From positions 186,001-250,000 of the forward strand of contig NZ_FNKA01000002.1 in NCBI RefSeq assembly GCF_900101335.1: 64,000 bases of DNA, written 5' to 3'. A model generated the notes under the pieces. The model had not been told where the DNA came from, did not search any database, and saw only the letters and a program-made list of their open reading frames with translations. The stretch comes from Quadrisphaera sp. DSM 44207. Its GTDB lineage: Bacteria > Actinomycetota > Actinomycetes > Actinomycetales > Quadrisphaeraceae. This document shows, one piece after another, positions 28,416 to 44,566 of this stretch (position 1 is its first letter; every line of letters begins with the position of its first letter). Position numbers and translations under genes: made by a program.

Positions 28416-28523
28416 CAGACCCGCTCGCGCAGGACGCCGGTTCGGACCCGCTCGCGCAGGACGCCGGTTCGGACCCGCTCGCGCAGGACGCCGGCTCAGA
28501 CCTGCTTGTGCAGGACCAGGGGG
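28416..28523. repeat. 27-base tandem repeat derived from the recQ 3' end
   Basis: Four 27-base units: 28416-28442, 28443-28469, 28470-28496 and the divergent 28497-28523. The last unit is the final coding segment of the recQ-like gene. Units 1-3 differ from each other at only one or two places, while the coding copy has several more changes. Confidence 0.85.
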
Positions 28524-30574
28524 TGCACCGAGCCGGAGCCGGCCTCGCGCAGCAGCGCGGCGGCCACCGCGAGGGTCCACCCGGACCGGCTGGTGTCGTC
28601 CAGCAGCAGCACCGGCCCCTGCGGCACGGGAGCGGCCAGCGACAGGCGCGCCAGCGCGGCGGTGGCGGCCGCCGTGCTCGTGGCGGCGGCGTCCTGGCGG
28701 GGCCCGTCGGGGTCGGCCGCCAGCACGGGCACCACCTGCAGGCGCCCCAGCGCCCCGAGGCGCTCGGCGAGGTCGCGCAGCAGCGCGCCGTGCCGGCGGG
28801 AGGGCACCCACGTCACCCACGTCGGGCGCCCGGCGGGCCAGCCCCAGCGCGCGAGGGTGCGCACCAGGCCGTCGAGGACCTCCTGCGGCACGGGCTCGTC
28901 CGCGCGCAGGGCGGCCGTGACGGCCTCCCCCCACGCCGGGTCCTCCGCGAGCGCGAGCGCCCGGCCGGGCTCGGCGCGCTGGTCGAGAGGGATCCGCCCG
29001 CGCCGCGGGGCCCCCGACGGCCACATCCGCCGCGGCTCGAGCACGGTGACCTGCGAGCGCAGGTGCGCCAGGGCGGCGGCGACCGAGCCCGGCTGCGGGG
29101 AGGCGCCGGGGGGCGGCAGGGAGCCGGTGCACACCGAGCAGCGGCCGCAGTCCTGCGCCTGCGGGTCGTCGAGGGCCTCGCGCAGCGTGCGCATCAGGCA
29201 CCGGGCGCCGCAGAGGTAGGAGCGCATGACGTCCTGCTCCGCGCGGCGGGCCGCGGCCACGCCGGCGATCCGCTCGGCGTCGTAGCGCCACGGCGCCCCC
29301 GTCGCGCGCCAGCCGCCCTCGGCGCGCTCGACGGCGCCGTCGACGTCGAGGACCTTCAGCAGCGCCTCCAGCCGCCCGCGGCGCAGCCCGCTCTCGACCT
29401 CCAGCACGGGCAGGCTCATCGGGGCGGGGGCGGCGGCGAGCACGTCGAGCACGCGGCGCACCACCGGCTCGGGCGGGAACGCGGTGGAGTCGAAGTACGC
29501 CCAGATCCGCTCGTCGGCGGCCGTGGGCAGCAGGACGCCCACCGCGCCGTCCAGGGCCCGCCCGGCCCGGCCGACGTGCTGGTAGTAGGCGACCGGGGAC
29601 GAGGGCGCGCCGAGGTGGAGCACGAACGACAGGCGCGGGTGGTCGTAGCCCATGCCGAGCGAGGACGTGGCGACCAGGGCCCGCAGCGACCCCTCGAGCA
29701 GCGCGCGCTCCAGGCGCTCGCGCTCGGCCGGCTCGGTCGCCGAGGAGTAGGCCGCCACCGAGTGCCCCCGGGCGGTGAGGAACTCGGCGAGCCGCGTCGT
29801 CTCGGCGACGGTGAGGGTGTAGACGATCCCGCTGCCCGGCTGCGCGGCCACCGCCTCGGCGATCCACGCGTACGCGGTCGCGACGTCGGGGGTGGGCACG
29901 ACCGCGAGCGCGAGGCCCTCCCGCTCCAGCGGGCCGCGCAGGGTCAGGGTGTCCTCGCCGAGCTGCGCCGCGACGTCCGCGCTGACCCGCGCGTTGGCGG
30001 TGGCGGTGGTCGCCAGGACGGGCGTGCCCTCGGGCAGCCCCTGCAGCACCGTGGCGATGCGCCGGTAGTCGGGGCGGAAGTCGTGGCCCCAGTCGGAGAT
30101 GCAGTGCGCCTCGTCGACGACGAGCAGCCCCAGCCGCGGGGCCAGGTGCGGCAGCACGCGGGCGCGGAAGCCGGCGGAGTTCAGCCGCTCGGGGGAGACG
30201 AGCAGGACGTCCACGTCGTCGGCGGCCAGGCGCGCCTCGACCGCCGGCCACTCCTCGAGGTTGGCCGAGTTGATCGTGACCGCGCGCAGGCCCGAGCGCT
30301 CGGCGGCCGCGACCTGGTCGCGCATGAGCGCCAGCAGGGGCGAGACGACGAGGGTGGGGCCCCCGCCGGCGGCCCGGCGCAGCGCGGTCGCGACCCAGTA
30401 CACCGCGGACTTGCCCCACCCGGTGCGCTGGACGACGACGACGCGCCGCCGCTGCGCCACCAGGGCCTCCACCGCCGTCCACTGGTCCTCGCGCAGCTGC
30501 GCCGCGGGCCCGGCCAGGGCGCGCAGGTGCTGCTCGGCGGCCTCGCGCAGGCCGGCGGTCGGGGCGGTGCTCAT
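28496..30574 (-). CDS. recQ: RecQ-family helicase with C-terminal phosphoribosyltransferase-like domain
   Basis: The 692-residue protein has Walker A QRTGWGKS (49-56), DEAH box VVDEAHCISDWGHDFRPDYR, ATTATA motif III, the motif VI region YYQHVGRAGR and a zinc-binding Cys cluster (CGARC, then CGRCSVC), all RecQ features. Beyond about residue 530 there is no HRDC domain. A phosphoribosyltransferase-like fold ends in the PRPP-loop-like VLLLDDTSRSGWT (from 655). RecQ enzymes unwind DNA 3' to 5' in repair. Such RecQ-PRT fusions are known in actinobacteria, but the role of the extra domain is not. Start ATG 30574. Confidence 0.9.
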   Translation of the reverse strand: MSTAPTAGLREAAEQHLRALAGPAAQLREDQWTAVEALVAQRRRVVVVQRTGWGKSAVYWVATALRRAAGGGPTLVVSPLLALMRDQVAAAERSGLRAVTINSANLEEWPAVEARLAADDVDVLLVSPERLNSAGFRARVLPHLAPRLGLLVVDEAHCISDWGHDFRPDYRRIATVLQGLPEGTPVLATTATANARVSADVAAQLGEDTLTLRGPLEREGLALAVVPTPDVATAYAWIAEAVAAQPGSGIVYTLTVAETTRLAEFLTARGHSVAAYSSATEPAERERLERALLEGSLRALVATSSLGMGYDHPRLSFVLHLGAPSSPVAYYQHVGRAGRALDGAVGVLLPTAADERIWAYFDSTAFPPEPVVRRVLDVLAAAPAPMSLPVLEVESGLRRGRLEALLKVLDVDGAVERAEGGWRATGAPWRYDAERIAGVAAARRAEQDVMRSYLCGARCLMRTLREALDDPQAQDCGRCSVCTGSLPPPGASPQPGSVAAALAHLRSQVTVLEPRRMWPSGAPRRGRIPLDQRAEPGRALALAEDPAWGEAVTAALRADEPVPQEVLDGLVRTLARWGWPAGRPTWVTWVPSRRHGALLRDLAERLGALGRLQVVPVLAADPDGPRQDAAATSTAAATAALARLSLAAPVPQGPVLLLDDTSRSGWTLAVAAALLREAGSGSVHPLVLHKQV

Positions 30575-30760
30575 GAGCGGATCACGGGGACCATCGTGCC
30601 GCGGCGCCCCGACAGCGCTCCGCCGTCCGGGGCCGGCGCCGGCGGCGCAGGACGCCGCGAACCGCCCCGAGCCGGGCCGAGCCGGGCCGAGCCGGGGCGA
30701 TCAGGACGACTCCGGCGCGCCTCCCGCGCCGCCGCGGCGCCGGCTGGTACTCCTGGGCGG

Positions 30761-31282
30761 GTGCGACTCCTCGACGTCCTGCGCCGGCTCGTCCCGCCGC
30801 GACCGGCCGCCGCCCCCGCGTGGGCGGCCCCGCCGGTGTGGACGGCCGTGCCGGCCCGCGCCGGCGCGAGCGGCACCGCTCCGACGACGGCGGCGCTCGC
30901 GGCGGTGGCCCCGGCGGCCTCGTGGGTGCCGACGCCCCGGCCCGCCGCCCGCCCGGCCCCCGAGCCCGCGCCCGCCGTCGGCCCGGTGCCCGCAGCTCCA
31001 GCGCTTGCCGCCGCTCCGGCGCCTCCCGCGGCCGCGCCGGCGCCCACCGCGGTGGTGCGGGCGTGGGCTCGGCAGAACGGCTTCGCCGTCAACGACAGGG
31101 GCCGGCTGTCCAACGCCGTCGTGGCCGCCTTCGCCGCCGCCCACGACACCGCCGCCCACGACACCGCCGCCCACGACACCGCCGCCCACGACACCGCCGC
31201 CCACGACACCGCCGCCCACGACACCGCCGCCCACGACACCGCGCACGACACCGCCGCGCCCGACGCCGCCGCGGTCCCGTGA
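30761..31282 (+). CDS. Lsr2-type DNA-binding-domain protein with AAHDT repeats
   Basis: The 173-residue protein has three parts. Residues 1-95 are Pro/Ala rich and disordered. Residues 97-128 (VVRAWARQNGFAVNDRGRLS) match the Lsr2 C-terminal domain, including the Arg113-Gly-Arg115 motif that enters the minor groove of AT-rich DNA in Lsr2. Residues 127-165 are seven AAHDT pentapeptides plus a short copy. The Lsr2 N-terminal dimerisation domain is missing. It probably binds DNA or is a decoy or modulator of true Lsr2, and the His/Asp repeats could bind metal; both are inference. The 186-base gap to recQ holds three GCCGGGCCGA repeats. GTG start. Confidence 0.65.
   Translation: MRLLDVLRRLVPPRPAAAPAWAAPPVWTAVPARAGASGTAPTTAALAAVAPAASWVPTPRPAARPAPEPAPAVGPVPAAPALAAAPAPPAAAPAPTAVVRAWARQNGFAVNDRGRLSNAVVAAFAAAHDTAAHDTAAHDTAAHDTAAHDTAAHDTAAHDTAHDTAAPDAAAVP
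31136..31240 (+). repeat. 15-base tandem repeat (7 copies) encoding AAHDT
   Basis: Seven identical copies of GCCGCCCACGACACC in frame, followed by a 12-base degenerate copy. Third codon positions are identical in all copies, so expansion is recent by slippage or recombination. Confidence 0.97.
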
Positions 31283-31388
31283 CGGGCGGGGGCGGACGAC
31301 CTGGCCGATTCGCCGGACGCCGCCCGCTGCTCACCCCTAGCGTTCCGACGACGCCGGAGAGGAGCTCCGGCCGGAACGAGGGACGGTC

Positions 31389-31919
31389 ATGGCGACCAGG
31401 CAGGTGCTCCACCAAGCGGTCCTCCCGGCACGGCGCGGGGCGGCTCCCGCCGGCCCCGTGCTCGACCTGACCGCCGCCGGCCCGGCAGCCGGCTGGGTGG
31501 CGCCCTCGGCGTCCGCCGCGGGCCGCGCCGCCGAGGAGGCGCCGCGAGGGCCGCACGCCTCGGTGCCGCACCTGACCGAGTGGCGTCCTGGAGGGGTCTC
31601 GCGGCGGCTGCGCACCGCGCAGGTGCTCGTGGTCGGCGTCCTCGCCGCGGCCGCCGGGGCGGGCATCGCCTCGGGGGAGTCCGAGGAGCTGGCGGTGGCC
31701 CGGGACGGCGCCCGCGCGGCGCAGGTCGCCGAGCAGGAGGCGTCGGCGCGCGCGCAGGAGGGCTGGGCGGCCGCGGACGCGGCCCGCGCGGACCTGCAGC
31801 GCGCCACCGCCGCGCAGGCCGCCGCCGAGGCCCGGGCCACCGAGGCGGAGCAGCGCCTGGCCGCCGCGCAGGCCGCTCCCGCGAAGACGTCCGCGAAGTC
31901 GGGCGCCGGCCGGGGCTGA
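31389..31919 (+). CDS. Single-pass membrane protein with Ala-rich coiled coil
   Basis: The 176-residue protein has a disordered 70-residue N-terminus, one membrane segment (about 76-94: TAQVLVVGVLAAAAGAGIAS), then an Ala/Glu/Arg heptad-like helix (AVARDGARAAQVAEQEASAR) to a Lys-rich end. GAGGGA precedes ATG 31389. No family is recognised. The coiled coil would lie outside if the N-terminus is cytosolic. It is convergent with the S9 peptidase gene. Confidence 0.6.
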   Translation: MATRQVLHQAVLPARRGAAPAGPVLDLTAAGPAAGWVAPSASAAGRAAEEAPRGPHASVPHLTEWRPGGVSRRLRTAQVLVVGVLAAAAGAGIASGESEELAVARDGARAAQVAEQEASARAQEGWAAADAARADLQRATAAQAAAEARATEAEQRLAAAQAAPAKTSAKSGAGRG

Positions 31920-31940
31920 CCCGGGGCGCTCGGACCCGGC

Positions 31941-34163
31941 TCAGGCCGGCCGGCCGCCGTCCGCGGCGGGCCCGTCGAGCGGGGCGCCGTCGAGCGGGGC
32001 GCCGGCGAGCCCGAGCACGTCGAGCACCCACGCGTACTCGTACGCGCGCTCGCGCCACGCCTCGTAGCGCCCGCTGCGCCCGCCGTGGCCGCCGTCGACC
32101 TCCGTCTTCAGCAGCACCTGCGGCGCCCCGCCGCCGACCTCGCGCAGCCGCGCCACCCACTTGGCGGGCTCGACGTAGAGCACCCGCGTGTCGTGCAGGC
32201 TCGTCGTGGCGAGGATCGGCGGGTACGGGCGCGCGGCGACGTTCTCGTAGGGCGAGTACGTCTTCATCGCCGCGTACACCGCGGGGTCGCGCAGCGGGTC
32301 CCCCCACTCCTCCTGCTCGGTCACCGTCAGCGGCAGCGACTCGTCGAGCATGGTGGTCAGCGGGTCCACGAACGGCACGGCCGCGAGGATCCCGGCGAAG
32401 TCGGACGGCGCGAGGTTCGCCACGGCGCCCACGAGCAGCCCTCCGGCGCTGCCGCCCATGGCCGCGAGCCGGGAGGGGTCGATCCAGCCGGCGCGCCCGA
32501 GGTGCTCGGCGACGGCGACGAAGTCGGTGAAGGTGTTCGGCTTCGCCAGGCCCTTGCCGTCCTGGTACCAGTGCCGCCCGAGCTCCCCGCCCCCGCGCAC
32601 GTGCGCGACCGCGAAGACGACGCCGCGGTCGAGCAGCGAGAGGCGCGAGGGGCTGAAGACGGGGTCGGTGCTGTGCTCGTAGGCGCCGTAGCCGTACAGC
32701 AGGCCGGGCGCCGTGCCGTCGCGAGGGGTGCCGGCGCGCACGACGACCGAGACCGGCACGCGGGTCCCGTCCGGCGCGCTCGCCCAGTCGCGGTGCTCCT
32801 CGTAGTCGGCGGGGTCGTAGCCGCCGAGCACGGGCATCCGCTTGCGCACGAGGACCTCGCCGTCGGCGACGCGCAGGTCCACGACCGCGGGCGGGACGAC
32901 GAAGGAGCCGTGCTCCAGGCGCAGCAGCGGCGCGGCGAAGGACCGGTTCGAGGACACCGCCGTGCTCGACAGCTCCTCGGCGAAGGCGACCTCCCGCGGG
33001 GCGCCGAGCCCGTCCGGGCCCACGGGGAGCACCGCGACGCGGGGCAGGGCCTCGCGCCGGTAGGAGAGGGCGACGAAGTCCGCGAAGGCGTCCACGTCGT
33101 CCAGTCGCGTACCGGGGGAGTGCTCGACGACGGTGCGCCAGCGCTCGGGGGCGGGGTCGTCGGCGTCGACGACGGCGAGCGCGAAGTCCTCGGCGCCCTC
33201 GTCGTGCAGCACCAGCAGCACGTCCCGGCCGCCGACGACGGCGTGGTCGACGGCGTACTCCACGCCCTCGCGGCGCGCGGCCACCAGGCGGGGCTCGCCC
33301 TCCGGGGCGCCGGCGTCGAGCAGGTGCACCTCGGTGGTGGTCTTGGACTCGGCGCTGATCACCAGGTACCGGTCGCTGCGGGTGCGTCCCACGCCGAGCC
33401 AGAACCGCTCGTCGGGCTCCTCGTGCACGACCGCGTCCTCGGCCACCGGCGTGCCGACGCGGTGGCGCACGACGCGGTGCGGGCGCCAGGAGGCGTCGAC
33501 GGTGACGTACAGGACGGTCCGCGAGTCCGCCGCCCAGGTCGCGCCGTAGAAGACGCCCGGCACCTCGTCGGGCAGGTCCGCCCCCGTGGCCAGGTCGCGC
33601 ACCCGCAGGGTGAAGCGCTCGTCGCCCGTGGTGTCCACCGACCACGCCAGGAGCCGACCGTCGGGGCTGACGGCCGCGGCGCCCAGGGCGAAGAAGGCGT
33701 GCCCGTCCGCCTGCGCGTCGCCGTCGAGCATCACCCGCTCCCCGGGCGGGGGAGCCCCGTCCTCGGTCGAGGGCGGGGTCCAGTCGTCGGGCGCGGTCAC
33801 CGGGCAGCGGCACAGCAGCGGGTGCTGCCCGCCCTGCACGGTGCGCGTGTAGTACCACCAGTCGCCCTCGCGCACGGGCACCGACAGGTCGCTCTCCTGC
33901 GTGCGGGAGCGGATCTCCTCGAACAGCGTCCCGCGCAGCCCCTGCAGGTGGGCGGTGCGCGCGGCCGCGTAGGCGTTCTCGGCGTCCAGGTGGGCGTGCA
34001 CGGCCGGGTCCTGCGCGTCCCGCAGCCACTCGTAGGGGTCGACGACGACGTCGCCGTGGTGCACGCGCTCGGTCGGCACCCGCTGCGCGACGGGCGGGGC
34101 GACGGGCGGGGCGCCGGCCGGCTCGACGGCCGCTGCCGCGGGGGAGGGGGCGGTCTCGCTCAC
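31941..34163 (-). CDS. ptrB: S9 family peptidase, oligopeptidase B-like
   Basis: The 740-residue enzyme has an N-terminal beta-propeller (DPYEWLRDAQDPAV, ALGAAAVSPDGRLLAWSVDTT) and a C-terminal alpha/beta hydrolase with catalytic Ser572 (GGSAGG), Asp658 (SLHDTRV) and His693 (DGGHGGRSGR). Oligopeptidase B markers such as AHVRGGGELGRHWY and GKGLAKPNTFTDF are present. It cleaves short peptides after basic residues in the cytosol. The end GAPLDGAPLDG is a short internal repeat. It is divergent from a TetR gene with a 107-base gap and may share its control region. Confidence 0.95.
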   Translation of the reverse strand: MSETAPSPAAAAVEPAGAPPVAPPVAQRVPTERVHHGDVVVDPYEWLRDAQDPAVHAHLDAENAYAAARTAHLQGLRGTLFEEIRSRTQESDLSVPVREGDWWYYTRTVQGGQHPLLCRCPVTAPDDWTPPSTEDGAPPPGERVMLDGDAQADGHAFFALGAAAVSPDGRLLAWSVDTTGDERFTLRVRDLATGADLPDEVPGVFYGATWAADSRTVLYVTVDASWRPHRVVRHRVGTPVAEDAVVHEEPDERFWLGVGRTRSDRYLVISAESKTTTEVHLLDAGAPEGEPRLVAARREGVEYAVDHAVVGGRDVLLVLHDEGAEDFALAVVDADDPAPERWRTVVEHSPGTRLDDVDAFADFVALSYRREALPRVAVLPVGPDGLGAPREVAFAEELSSTAVSSNRSFAAPLLRLEHGSFVVPPAVVDLRVADGEVLVRKRMPVLGGYDPADYEEHRDWASAPDGTRVPVSVVVRAGTPRDGTAPGLLYGYGAYEHSTDPVFSPSRLSLLDRGVVFAVAHVRGGGELGRHWYQDGKGLAKPNTFTDFVAVAEHLGRAGWIDPSRLAAMGGSAGGLLVGAVANLAPSDFAGILAAVPFVDPLTTMLDESLPLTVTEQEEWGDPLRDPAVYAAMKTYSPYENVAARPYPPILATTSLHDTRVLYVEPAKWVARLREVGGGAPQVLLKTEVDGGHGGRSGRYEAWRERAYEYAWVLDVLGLAGAPLDGAPLDGPAADGGRPA

Positions 34164-42799: not shown

Positions 42800-44566
42800 A
42801 TGGCGGCAGCGTGCGAGCGCGCGGCGCAGGCGCAGGCGCTGGCCGACCTGGCCGAGGGCCTGGCGGGGGAGTTCTCGCTGCGACCCCTGCTGGAGCGGGT
42901 GCTGCGCTCGGCCGTGGCCCTGCTGGGCTGCTCGGACGGCTCGATCAGCCTGGTCGACCACAGCAGCGGCACCTACCGCAAGGAGGCGGACGTCGGGGTG
43001 GCCTGCCAGTCGGGCCGCTCCTTCCCGCTGGTGGAGGGCCTGACCGGTGAGGTGGTGCGCGCCGGCGGGCCCGTCGTCGTCGACGACTACCGGCAGGTGC
43101 GCGGCGGGCACCTGCACCCCGCCGACCGCGCGCGCCTGCACGCCGCCGTCGGCGTCCCGGTGCGCTGGGGGCCCGCCGTGCTCGGGGCCGTCGTCGTCTT
43201 CTCCGCCGACCCGGCGCGGCGCTTCCGGCCGGCGGACGTGGAGCTGCTGAGCCTGTTCGCCCGCCACGCCGCCATCGCGATCACCAACGCCCGCCTGCAC
43301 GCCGTCGCGGCCGAGCGGGGGTGGGCGGAGGCCGCGGCGCGCGAGCGGGAGCGCTCGGCGCGGCAGGTGCAGGAGCGCCTCAGCCGCCAGCTGGCCACCC
43401 TCCTCGTGCACCTCGAGCGCGCCGCGGGCGACGGCGGCGCGGACGGCGGCGCGGACGGCGGCGCGGACGGCGGCGCGGACGGCGGCGCGGACGGCCCGCG
43501 GGAGGCGCTGGGCGCGGCCGCGGCGGTCGCGCGCTCGGCGCTGGCGATCGCCCGCTCCGCCGGCGCGCAGCCCGACGACCTCCCGGAGGGGCTGACGCTG
43601 CACGACGCGGTCGCGGCGGAGGTCGCGTGGGCGCGGACGGCGGCGGGCCTGGACGGCCGCCTCGTCGTCGCCGGCCAGGTGCGGGCGCCCGACGCGGAGG
43701 TCGCCGGCCACCTGCTGCGCGCGACCCGCTGCGCCGTGGTGCGCGCCGTGGCCCGCAGCCGCGCCGCCGTGCTGCGCGTGGGGCTGGTGCACGGCGCGGA
43801 GGGCGTCGTGCTGCTGGTCGAGGACGACGGCAGCGGGGAGGCCGGCGACGACGGCCTCGCGCGGGTCGTCGCGCGCACCCGGGCGCTCGGCGGCGCGGCG
43901 GAGCTGACCACGACGCCGGGGTGGGGCACCACCCTGCGCGTGCAGCTGCCGTACCGGCTGGCGGGGGAGCACCGCCCGGCGCGCACCGGCGTCCTCGTCG
44001 TCGACGGGCGGCCCGCGGTGCGCAGCGGGCTCGCCGCGCTGATCGGCCAGGGCGGCCCCGCCGTGCGCGTGCTCGGCGACGTCGGGCGCGCCGGCGACGT
44101 CCCGGACGCCGTGCGGCTGCTGCGCCCGGACGTCGTCGTCCTCGGCGACCGGCTGGCCGACGCCGCCCCCGCCCAGGTGGTGGCGGCCCTGCTGGAGCAG
44201 GACCCGCGGGCCGCGGTCGTCCTCGTCGAGGAGCCGGCCGGGGCCGCCGTGCCCGTGGCGGGGCTGCGCGGGCGCGTCAGCGCCGAGGCCACCGGCCCGG
44301 AGCTGGTGCAGGCGGTGGTGCGGGCGGCCGACGCGCCGTCCGCCGCCGCGGCGCCGGCCGGCGGCGACGGACGGGCCCCGACCCCGCGCGAGCTGGAGGT
44401 GCTGCACCTGCTCGAGCGCGGCTGCTCGGACCGGCGGATCGCCGAGGAGCTCGTCATCTCCCGCAAGACGGTGGAGAAGCACGTCGGCGCGCTGCTGCGC
44501 AAGCACGGCGTGCACAGCCGCGCCGCGCTCGTCGCCCAGCGCAGCCGCCTGCTCCTGCCCGGGTGA
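42800..44566 (+). CDS. GAF / degenerate kinase / degenerate receiver / LuxR regulator
   Basis: The 588-residue protein reads as a whole two-component pathway in one chain. An N-terminal GAF domain (15-165) is followed by a HisKA_3-like helix where the H-box has Gln191 and Glu192 instead of His-Asp, and a HATPase-like domain in which the N-box Glu/Asn are Cys311/Arg315 but DDGSG remains. A receiver-like domain (398-515) follows, where the phosphoacceptor aligns with Gly449 (Asp450 is next to it). A normal LuxR helix-turn-helix ends the protein (TPRELEVLHLLERGCSDRRI). Phosphotransfer is unlikely, so the GAF probably controls the HTH directly. Five GGAD repeats lie at 212-231. ATG follows GGAGG. 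Confidence 0.85.
   Translation: MAAACERAAQAQALADLAEGLAGEFSLRPLLERVLRSAVALLGCSDGSISLVDHSSGTYRKEADVGVACQSGRSFPLVEGLTGEVVRAGGPVVVDDYRQVRGGHLHPADRARLHAAVGVPVRWGPAVLGAVVVFSADPARRFRPADVELLSLFARHAAIAITNARLHAVAAERGWAEAAARERERSARQVQERLSRQLATLLVHLERAAGDGGADGGADGGADGGADGGADGPREALGAAAAVARSALAIARSAGAQPDDLPEGLTLHDAVAAEVAWARTAAGLDGRLVVAGQVRAPDAEVAGHLLRATRCAVVRAVARSRAAVLRVGLVHGAEGVVLLVEDDGSGEAGDDGLARVVARTRALGGAAELTTTPGWGTTLRVQLPYRLAGEHRPARTGVLVVDGRPAVRSGLAALIGQGGPAVRVLGDVGRAGDVPDAVRLLRPDVVVLGDRLADAAPAQVVAALLEQDPRAAVVLVEEPAGAAVPVAGLRGRVSAEATGPELVQAVVRAADAPSAAAAPAGGDGRAPTPRELEVLHLLERGCSDRRIAEELVISRKTVEKHVGALLRKHGVHSRAALVAQRSRLLLPG
43433..43492 (+). repeat. 12-base tandem repeat (5 copies) encoding GGAD
   Basis: Five identical copies of GGCGGCGCGGAC in frame in the linker between the kinase-like helix and the HATPase-like domain of the LuxR hybrid gene. 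Confidence 0.95.

Follow-up and report, generated by a model that had tools for sequence, protein, structure and literature searches.

The subject of this analysis is a small gene in a 64,000-nucleotide stretch of the genome of Quadrisphaera sp. DSM 44207 (contig NZ_FNKA01000002.1, positions 186,001 to 250,000 of the forward strand), which we refer to as the window and whose own numbering is used throughout. The gene occupies positions 30761 to 31282 and can encode the DNA-binding domain of Lsr2 without the dimerization domain, preceded by a Pro/Ala-rich leader and followed by a tail of perfect AAHDT repeats. The features of the gene are as follows.

30761..31282, forward strand: open reading frame (ORF) of 173 amino acids for a detached Lsr2 DNA-binding-domain protein; the frame is open, and its GTG start is a guess.
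30761..31036, forward strand: Pro/Ala-rich N-terminal 92 amino acids (33 Ala, 22 Pro), with a mixed coding signal.
31037..31141, forward strand: Lsr2 DNA-binding domain PF23359 (Pfam), amino acids 93-127, with W102 and R113-G114-R115 retained.
31136..31240, forward strand: seven identical 15-bp units coding AAHDT, the first of which overlaps the end of the domain.
31241..31279, forward strand: degenerate end of the array, AHDT AAPDA AAVP, consisting of decayed copies.

The frame is open, and its translation is the protein described in the original prediction, which had recognized from the letters an Lsr2 DNA-binding domain with its RGR motif kept, no oligomerization domain, and a repeat tail; that description is confirmed. 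In the 173-amino-acid protein, PF23359 matches amino acids 93-127 with 46.9 bits (cut-off 26.9, E=1.7e-12) and is the sole Pfam domain up to E=1, with neither the dimerization domain PF11774 nor any catalytic or ATPase domain ahead of the Lsr2 domain at that threshold. The profile search that had been proposed as a check on the assignment therefore returned a domain that is Lsr2-like. The protein also matches PHROG 1223, 'Lsr2-like' (E=1.2e-10), and a sequence search of the PDB returned only entries for the Lsr2 C-terminal domain (2kng, 6qkq and 6qkp, E 0.002-0.005). Comparison of the predicted model to the PDB with Foldseek gave only two matches, 2kng (rmsd 0.9 over 34 columns, probability 0.99, E 0.34) and 6qkp (E 1.6), both of which are supportive only. 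Across 30 aligned sequences W102, R113 and G114 are invariant, and R115 is present, which leaves the RGR motif intact. NCBIfam gave no Lsr2 match for the protein up to E=1, and a Foldseek comparison with viral models found no match with an E under 2.4.

Because the GC content of the sequence is 77% and the frame that contains positions 30761 to 31282 is open across 1016 codons, openness is no evidence of coding. The evidence that rises above chance is the Pfam score together with the GC content by codon position over the domain and the tail. For the domain these values are 0.74/0.63/0.97 and for the tail 0.81/0.62/0.98, both clearly coding-like and comparable to 0.80/0.57/1.00 in the neighboring RecQ gene. 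The Pro/Ala-rich leader gives 0.89/0.82/0.90, which is mixed, with the third position dropping to 0.80 near 30965, and codon-position GC upstream of 30761 is not coding-like. The GTG at 30761 is just one possible start, inspection by eye found no clear ribosome-binding site ahead of it, and the true start may lie further inside. A scan for promoters and terminators found none, which is uninformative since close to none would be expected by chance.

We next describe how the domain is distributed in the order. In a sample of 119 genomes of the order, for which PF23359 and PF11774 matches were tabulated per genome, each domain occurs in 102. PF23359 outnumbers PF11774 in 25 of the 102 domain-positive genomes, the window genome included; this is a net count made by eye, in which genomes G008 and G010 come out balanced, although both contain exonuclease fusions. 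The reverse excess occurs in five genomes (G067, G070, G084, G092 and G106). PF23359 without PF11774 is thus not rare in the order, and some surplus copies form the C-terminal module of repair-type proteins, as identified by Pfam. Fusions to an RNase_T exonuclease were found at loci L016, L151 and L152, the last two of which also have BRCT-type matches, and L151 has residues beyond the Lsr2 domain. Exonuclease-like frames of about 540-590 amino acids that end in an Lsr2 domain occur in all six g4 genomes of the same family (L009, L015, L016, L025, L030 and L055; Pfam run on L016 only), and we take these exonucleases to be of the 'DEDDh' type. Outside g4, a search with the exonuclease part gave no match at E<=1e-10 in any of the 7 remaining family genomes, the window genome included. 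An ERCC4-type nuclease carries a C-terminal Lsr2 domain at L017 and L115, with L130 listed alike (Pfam run on L017 and L115 only), and SbcC-like frames do so at L105 (G111), L146 (G176) and L147 (G137); among these, Pfam was run on L105 only, where the SbcC Walker B match of 20.9 bits falls under its cut-off of 27. Finally, L150 (G005:C1:341500-344500, genus g3) is an NAD-dependent DNA ligase in which the Lsr2 domain follows BRCT (Pfam). Judged by frame length, G004:C53:2580 and G006:C9:4411 are likely also ligase-Lsr2 fusions.

In sequence, the window's domain appears to resemble these fused copies. From all fetched loci we collected 81 distinct 29-residue cores, comprising 61 with a dimer-domain motif upstream, 17 without one, 2 that were dropped (L008 and L014, which both begin at contig edges) and the window's own; the classes rest on this motif and not on PF11774 itself. 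Leave-one-out matrices separate the 61 canonical cores from the 17 unpaired or fused cores with an area under the curve of 0.905. The window's domain scores -11.9, compared to a median of +21 and a minimum of -15.8 for canonical cores and a median of -19 and a maximum of +30.3 for unpaired cores, and by its sequence it appears to group with the unpaired or fused type, within overlapping ranges. The original prediction had stated that the dimer domain was replaced by the Pro/Ala-rich segment. The missing PF11774 and the leader hold up, but replacement as a history is doubtful, and a dimer domain may never have existed, since in sequence the domain appears nearer to the unpaired or fused copies than to canonical Lsr2, with the overlap just noted. 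Under BLOSUM62 the two nearest cores are g4 exonuclease-Lsr2 fusions (score 99), which are identical at 19/29 positions (20/30 in another alignment). The first ten residues of the window protein, MRLLDVLRRL, score 13 against the exonuclease start MGVLDRLMRR, and none of 284 other coding-like starts scores as high, in a comparison that was chosen after the fact, uses a guessed window start and counts some of the 284 repeatedly from overlapping loci. Origin from an exonuclease-type fusion is possible. Locus L008 (G002) was considered as an orthologue and rejected, as its frame is cut by a contig edge at the start and its score is canonical (+22); L014, which also starts at a contig edge, scores -17.

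The repeat tail consists of exactly seven identical GCCGCCCACGACACC units, with starts at 31136, 31151, 31166, 31181, 31196, 31211 and 31226 (step 15), and the claim that the repeats are identical at the DNA level is borne out to the base. After the seven units come one AHDT and then decayed copies. The tail after amino acid 127 holds 8 His and 9 Asp. The first unit overlaps the domain end, and therefore the tail grows out of the domain. Whereas 46 residues follow the window's domain, 66 of the 81 collected copies of all kinds end <=6 residues past the core. At the core's end 37 of the 81 domains have AAH or AGH, the residues that begin the repeat unit, and these residues are the seed of the repeat. 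The tandem-repeat score (TRF) of the array, 236, is the highest of 41 rows in the window, where the next are 163 and 132, and 24 of 35 tallied tandem-repeat rows have periods divisible by three. The AAHDT array is thus the extreme of a class of repeats that is common in the window. Two other strong arrays whose period is a multiple of three lie at 28418-28516 (27 bp x 3.7, score 163) and at 43430-43495 (12 bp x 5.5, 100% match).

A similar tail occurs in another family of the order, where the SbcC-like fusion L105 carries AAHDLAAHDLAAHD after its Lsr2 domain, in AAHDL pentads, and ends in AAHDLAAHDLAAHDGEGTG; its sisters L146 and L147 carry at most one unit. Compared at the sequence level, this expansion appears to be parallel growth of a like pentad. 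The pattern AAHD-x-AAHD, with a pyrimidine as the middle base of x, was found in 5 of 396 order genomes, and it occurs more than once only in the window genome and G111, behind an Lsr2 domain in both; the other three genomes have it once, elsewhere. The sequence AAHDT-AAHDT was found in 15 stretches of the genome_contigs collection, none of them in a frame that also holds an Lsr2 domain motif, and in none of the viral contigs. With these two results and a pattern that is not enriched (see the control below), we rejected the tail as a known repeat family.

Searches with the window protein itself covered 13 genomes of the family, in which the genus is represented by the window's own genome, and 396 genomes of the order, in which 8 candidates per genome were scored. 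Matches were obtained in 13/13 family genomes at E<=0.001 and in 118/396 order genomes at E<=1e-5, and in both sets they center on the domain. No clear orthologue, extending beyond the 35-amino-acid domain and low-complexity flanks, was found in the 12 other family genomes or among the 8 candidates scored in each of the 395 other order genomes. The alignments that extend furthest start at residues 13-32 and stop at 127-132; their partners are the g4 exonuclease fusions and a single long frame of G138, and ahead of the domain these alignments pass through Pro/Ala-rich linker. A seeded search of genome_contigs found no homologue beyond the domain, and phage records gave no match; both negatives are soft, the former because the seed method is weak and the latter because tblastn with a 44-residue query is weak. 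A plasmid search returned one partial match, annotated as Lsr2 of Rhodococcus koreensis. By these comparisons, the gene looks like a lineage-specific orphan.

The window genome (G000; 3.2 Mb, 4 contigs, 97% complete) encodes one complete Lsr2 elsewhere, at C1:921606-921980, with both domains; PF11774 matches only there, at C1:921807-921980, and the window gene is the only other PF23359 match above the cut-off. Runs of at least 4 A/T are scarce, with 2 in the 64-kb window and none within 30000-32500. The gene is flanked by the following features.

28496..30574, reverse strand: RecQ-like DEAD/DEAH helicase, the divergent neighbor, with a homologue in 13/13 family genomes.
31389..31919, forward strand: downstream ORF of 176 amino acids, in which a single putative membrane helix and a coiled region rich in Ala and Glu were recognized by eye.
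31941..34163, reverse strand: prolyl oligopeptidase (S9), which with RecQ brackets a variable interval.

A search with the downstream ORF gave no match at E<=1e-5 in any of the 118 other genomes of the 119-genome order sample, which contains 8 of the 12 other family genomes. In four of the six relatives that were opened, RecQ and the oligopeptidase lie next to each other, arranged as in the window in G002, G008 and G011 and reversed and nearly touching in G001; they are not neighbors in G003 and G007 within the stretch taken. The interval between them holds 3.6 kb of other sequence in G008, a short frame that we take to be CarD-like in G002 and a presumably hydrolase-like frame in G011. Because its content differs in each relative, the interval is a variable spot, and the RecQ regions of G001, G002, G008 and G011 contain no Lsr2-domain match at E<=0.001. 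The g4 exonuclease fusion lies about 18-21 kb from RecQ in 5/6 g4 genomes (G012 has the two on different small contigs). That site is on the 3' side of RecQ and the window gene is on the 5' side, and direct descent from the fusion at the same locus is not supported.

In the leader, AlphaFold predicts a short helix at amino acids 3-10 and little helix or strand beyond it. It also predicts that a single helix, in which the domain's second helix runs through the repeat, spans amino acids 118-162 with a 30-row alignment and 118-164 without one. In the run with the alignment, this helix block has pLDDT values of 82-94 over amino acids 121-160. The tail could thus extend the second helix of the domain, and each Asp would precede the following His by four residues, which would suit salt bridges along a helix. 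We infer that the tail arose by slippage of a 15-bp unit that encodes the residues at the very end of the domain. If the protein is produced, it would be expected to be monomeric and to make weak, brief contacts with the minor groove of AT-rich DNA, and the acidic tail should weaken this binding further. Because it has one binding domain and no polymerizing domain, bridging or silencing of the kind performed by Lsr2 would not be expected. Lsr2 of M. smegmatis without its N-terminal domain is reported to be diffuse, with 86% of tracked molecules highly mobile and dwell times twofold lower, and a strain with this variant resembles an lsr2 deletion (PMC7858621). By analogy with that mobile, short-dwelling truncation, the window protein would be expected to act as a weak competitor.

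We therefore consider that the gene is probably a free-standing offshoot, or a remnant, of the DNA-binding module that relatives append to DNA-repair enzymes, and not a gene silencer. The reading that we favor, with roughly even confidence, is a small lineage-specific gene with a detached Lsr2 DNA-binding domain at its core, a monovalent offshoot of the type fused to repair enzymes. Several points weigh against it. The start site is guessed and the coding signal of the leader is mixed. The domain is only 29-35 amino acids long, the ranges of the two classes overlap, and the unpaired class includes several close sisters, so that the leave-one-out separation looks better than it is. The exonucleases (99) lead the BLOSUM ranking only narrowly over L008 (96) and canonical copies (94-92), and the window interval differs from the g4 fusion site, which is on the other side of RecQ. 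A helical tail is hypothesized from models with low overall pTM (0.37 and 0.32 in the two runs), and AlphaFold is prone to model Ala-rich repeats as helical, so that such a helix is easily over-predicted. The backward control of AAHD-x-AAHD matches 9/396 genomes, compared to 5/396 for the pattern, which is thus not enriched as such. Finally, the genomes searched gave no orthologue against which selection could be gauged, and a relic fits almost as well. Such a relic would be non-functional and barely or not expressed, the end of a former Lsr2-domain fusion (perhaps of the g4 exonuclease type) that acquired low-complexity expansions in a variable interval. The lack of an orthologue and the variability between RecQ and the oligopeptidase are as a relic would have them, as are the low-complexity leader with its mixed signal, the lack of a clear ribosome-binding site by eye, the N-terminus nearest to an exonuclease start among 284 others (post hoc) and the absence of the g4 exonuclease homologue from the window genome at E<=1e-10. 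However, the frame is intact, the third-position GC is coding-like over domain and tail, and the invariant W and the RGR motif are kept; we view a relic as possible but less likely than the offshoot.

Offshoot and relic are both favored over the functions put forward in the original prediction, because binding is expected to be weak and brief and AT tracts are scarce; the sequence observation of that prediction is right, but the mechanism it offered is unsupported. It had suggested a possible Lsr2 antagonist; in that case the domain, as a monomer, would sit on AT-rich sites and keep filaments of the genomic Lsr2 from growing. The protein does have the same domain type without the polymerizing part, in a genome with a complete Lsr2, and truncated phage Lsr2 proteins have been suggested to be dominant negative, although these keep the oligomerization domain and lack the DNA-binding domain (PMC10066036). 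The high mobility and short dwell of Lsr2 without its N-terminal domain in M. smegmatis (PMC7858621) argue against an antagonist, as do the 9 Asp of the tail, which should lower DNA affinity, and the near absence of AT tracts, a count that covers the window only; we consider this function unlikely. Less probable again is the broader idea that detached Lsr2 domains are a reusable tether to AT-rich or easily melted DNA, of which the window's would be a free adaptor for a repair enzyme, for example the divergent RecQ, with a slippage-tuned helical spacer of the AAHD type seen twice independently. At the bottom of the scale, and very improbable, we place the proposed metal-responsive anchor, in which the His/Asp tail would bind Zn, Ni or Co and serve to tether or switch the DNA-binding domain. 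The 8 His and 9 Asp after amino acid 127, with an i,i+4 spacing of Asp and His along the predicted helix, would suit it, but a like pentad grows independently on the SbcC-like fusion and in unrelated frames without an Lsr2 motif, as slippage would give, and neither of the two identified flanking genes, RecQ and the oligopeptidase, is a metal gene.

The favored offshoot can be compared to several known systems. With Lsr2 itself (PF11774 + PF23359), the nucleoid-associated xenogeneic silencer, the window protein shares the DNA-binding domain (PDB 2kng, 6qkp, 6qkq), but it is without the dimerization domain and has a Pro/Ala leader and 46 residues after the domain. In the Ku-Lsr2 fusion of cluster J mycobacteriophages, a DNA-repair protein likewise carries the Lsr2 DNA-binding domain without the dimerization domain, but in the phage protein this domain follows a Ku-like part of about 250 residues, whereas the window protein is without a second recognizable domain (PMC8612146). 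The g4 exonuclease-Lsr2 fusions of the same family have the closest domain sequences and similar first ten residues, and they differ by their exonuclease domain and locus. L105 shares the AAHD-type pentads after the Lsr2 domain but has three AAHD units against eight HDT units in the window, and a large ATPase-like part precedes its domain. In a literature search for Lsr2-domain fusions of repair enzymes, phage Ku-Lsr2 was the only published case found. The gene itself is probably a minor orphan; the wider lead is the recurrence of the Lsr2 domain, without its dimerization domain, on repair enzymes, which raises the question of whether the domain steers such enzymes to AT-rich or Lsr2-coated DNA. 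A PF23359 match alone is no proof of a silencer.

Half of a silencer standing alone has also been described for H-NST and for phage Lsr2 without a DNA-binding domain, which keep the oligomerization half, whereas the window protein keeps the DNA-binding half (PMC8612146, PMC10066036). Within the order, L164 (G060:C11) was considered as a natural domain-only protein and set aside, as a transposase frame, presumably of the IS3 type, ends just upstream and L164 may be a broken Lsr2. In a genome without a PF11774 match but only 62% complete (G065), L161 (G065:C181) is a 124-amino-acid frame that has PF23359 only, with a different N-terminus and with RGP in place of RGR.
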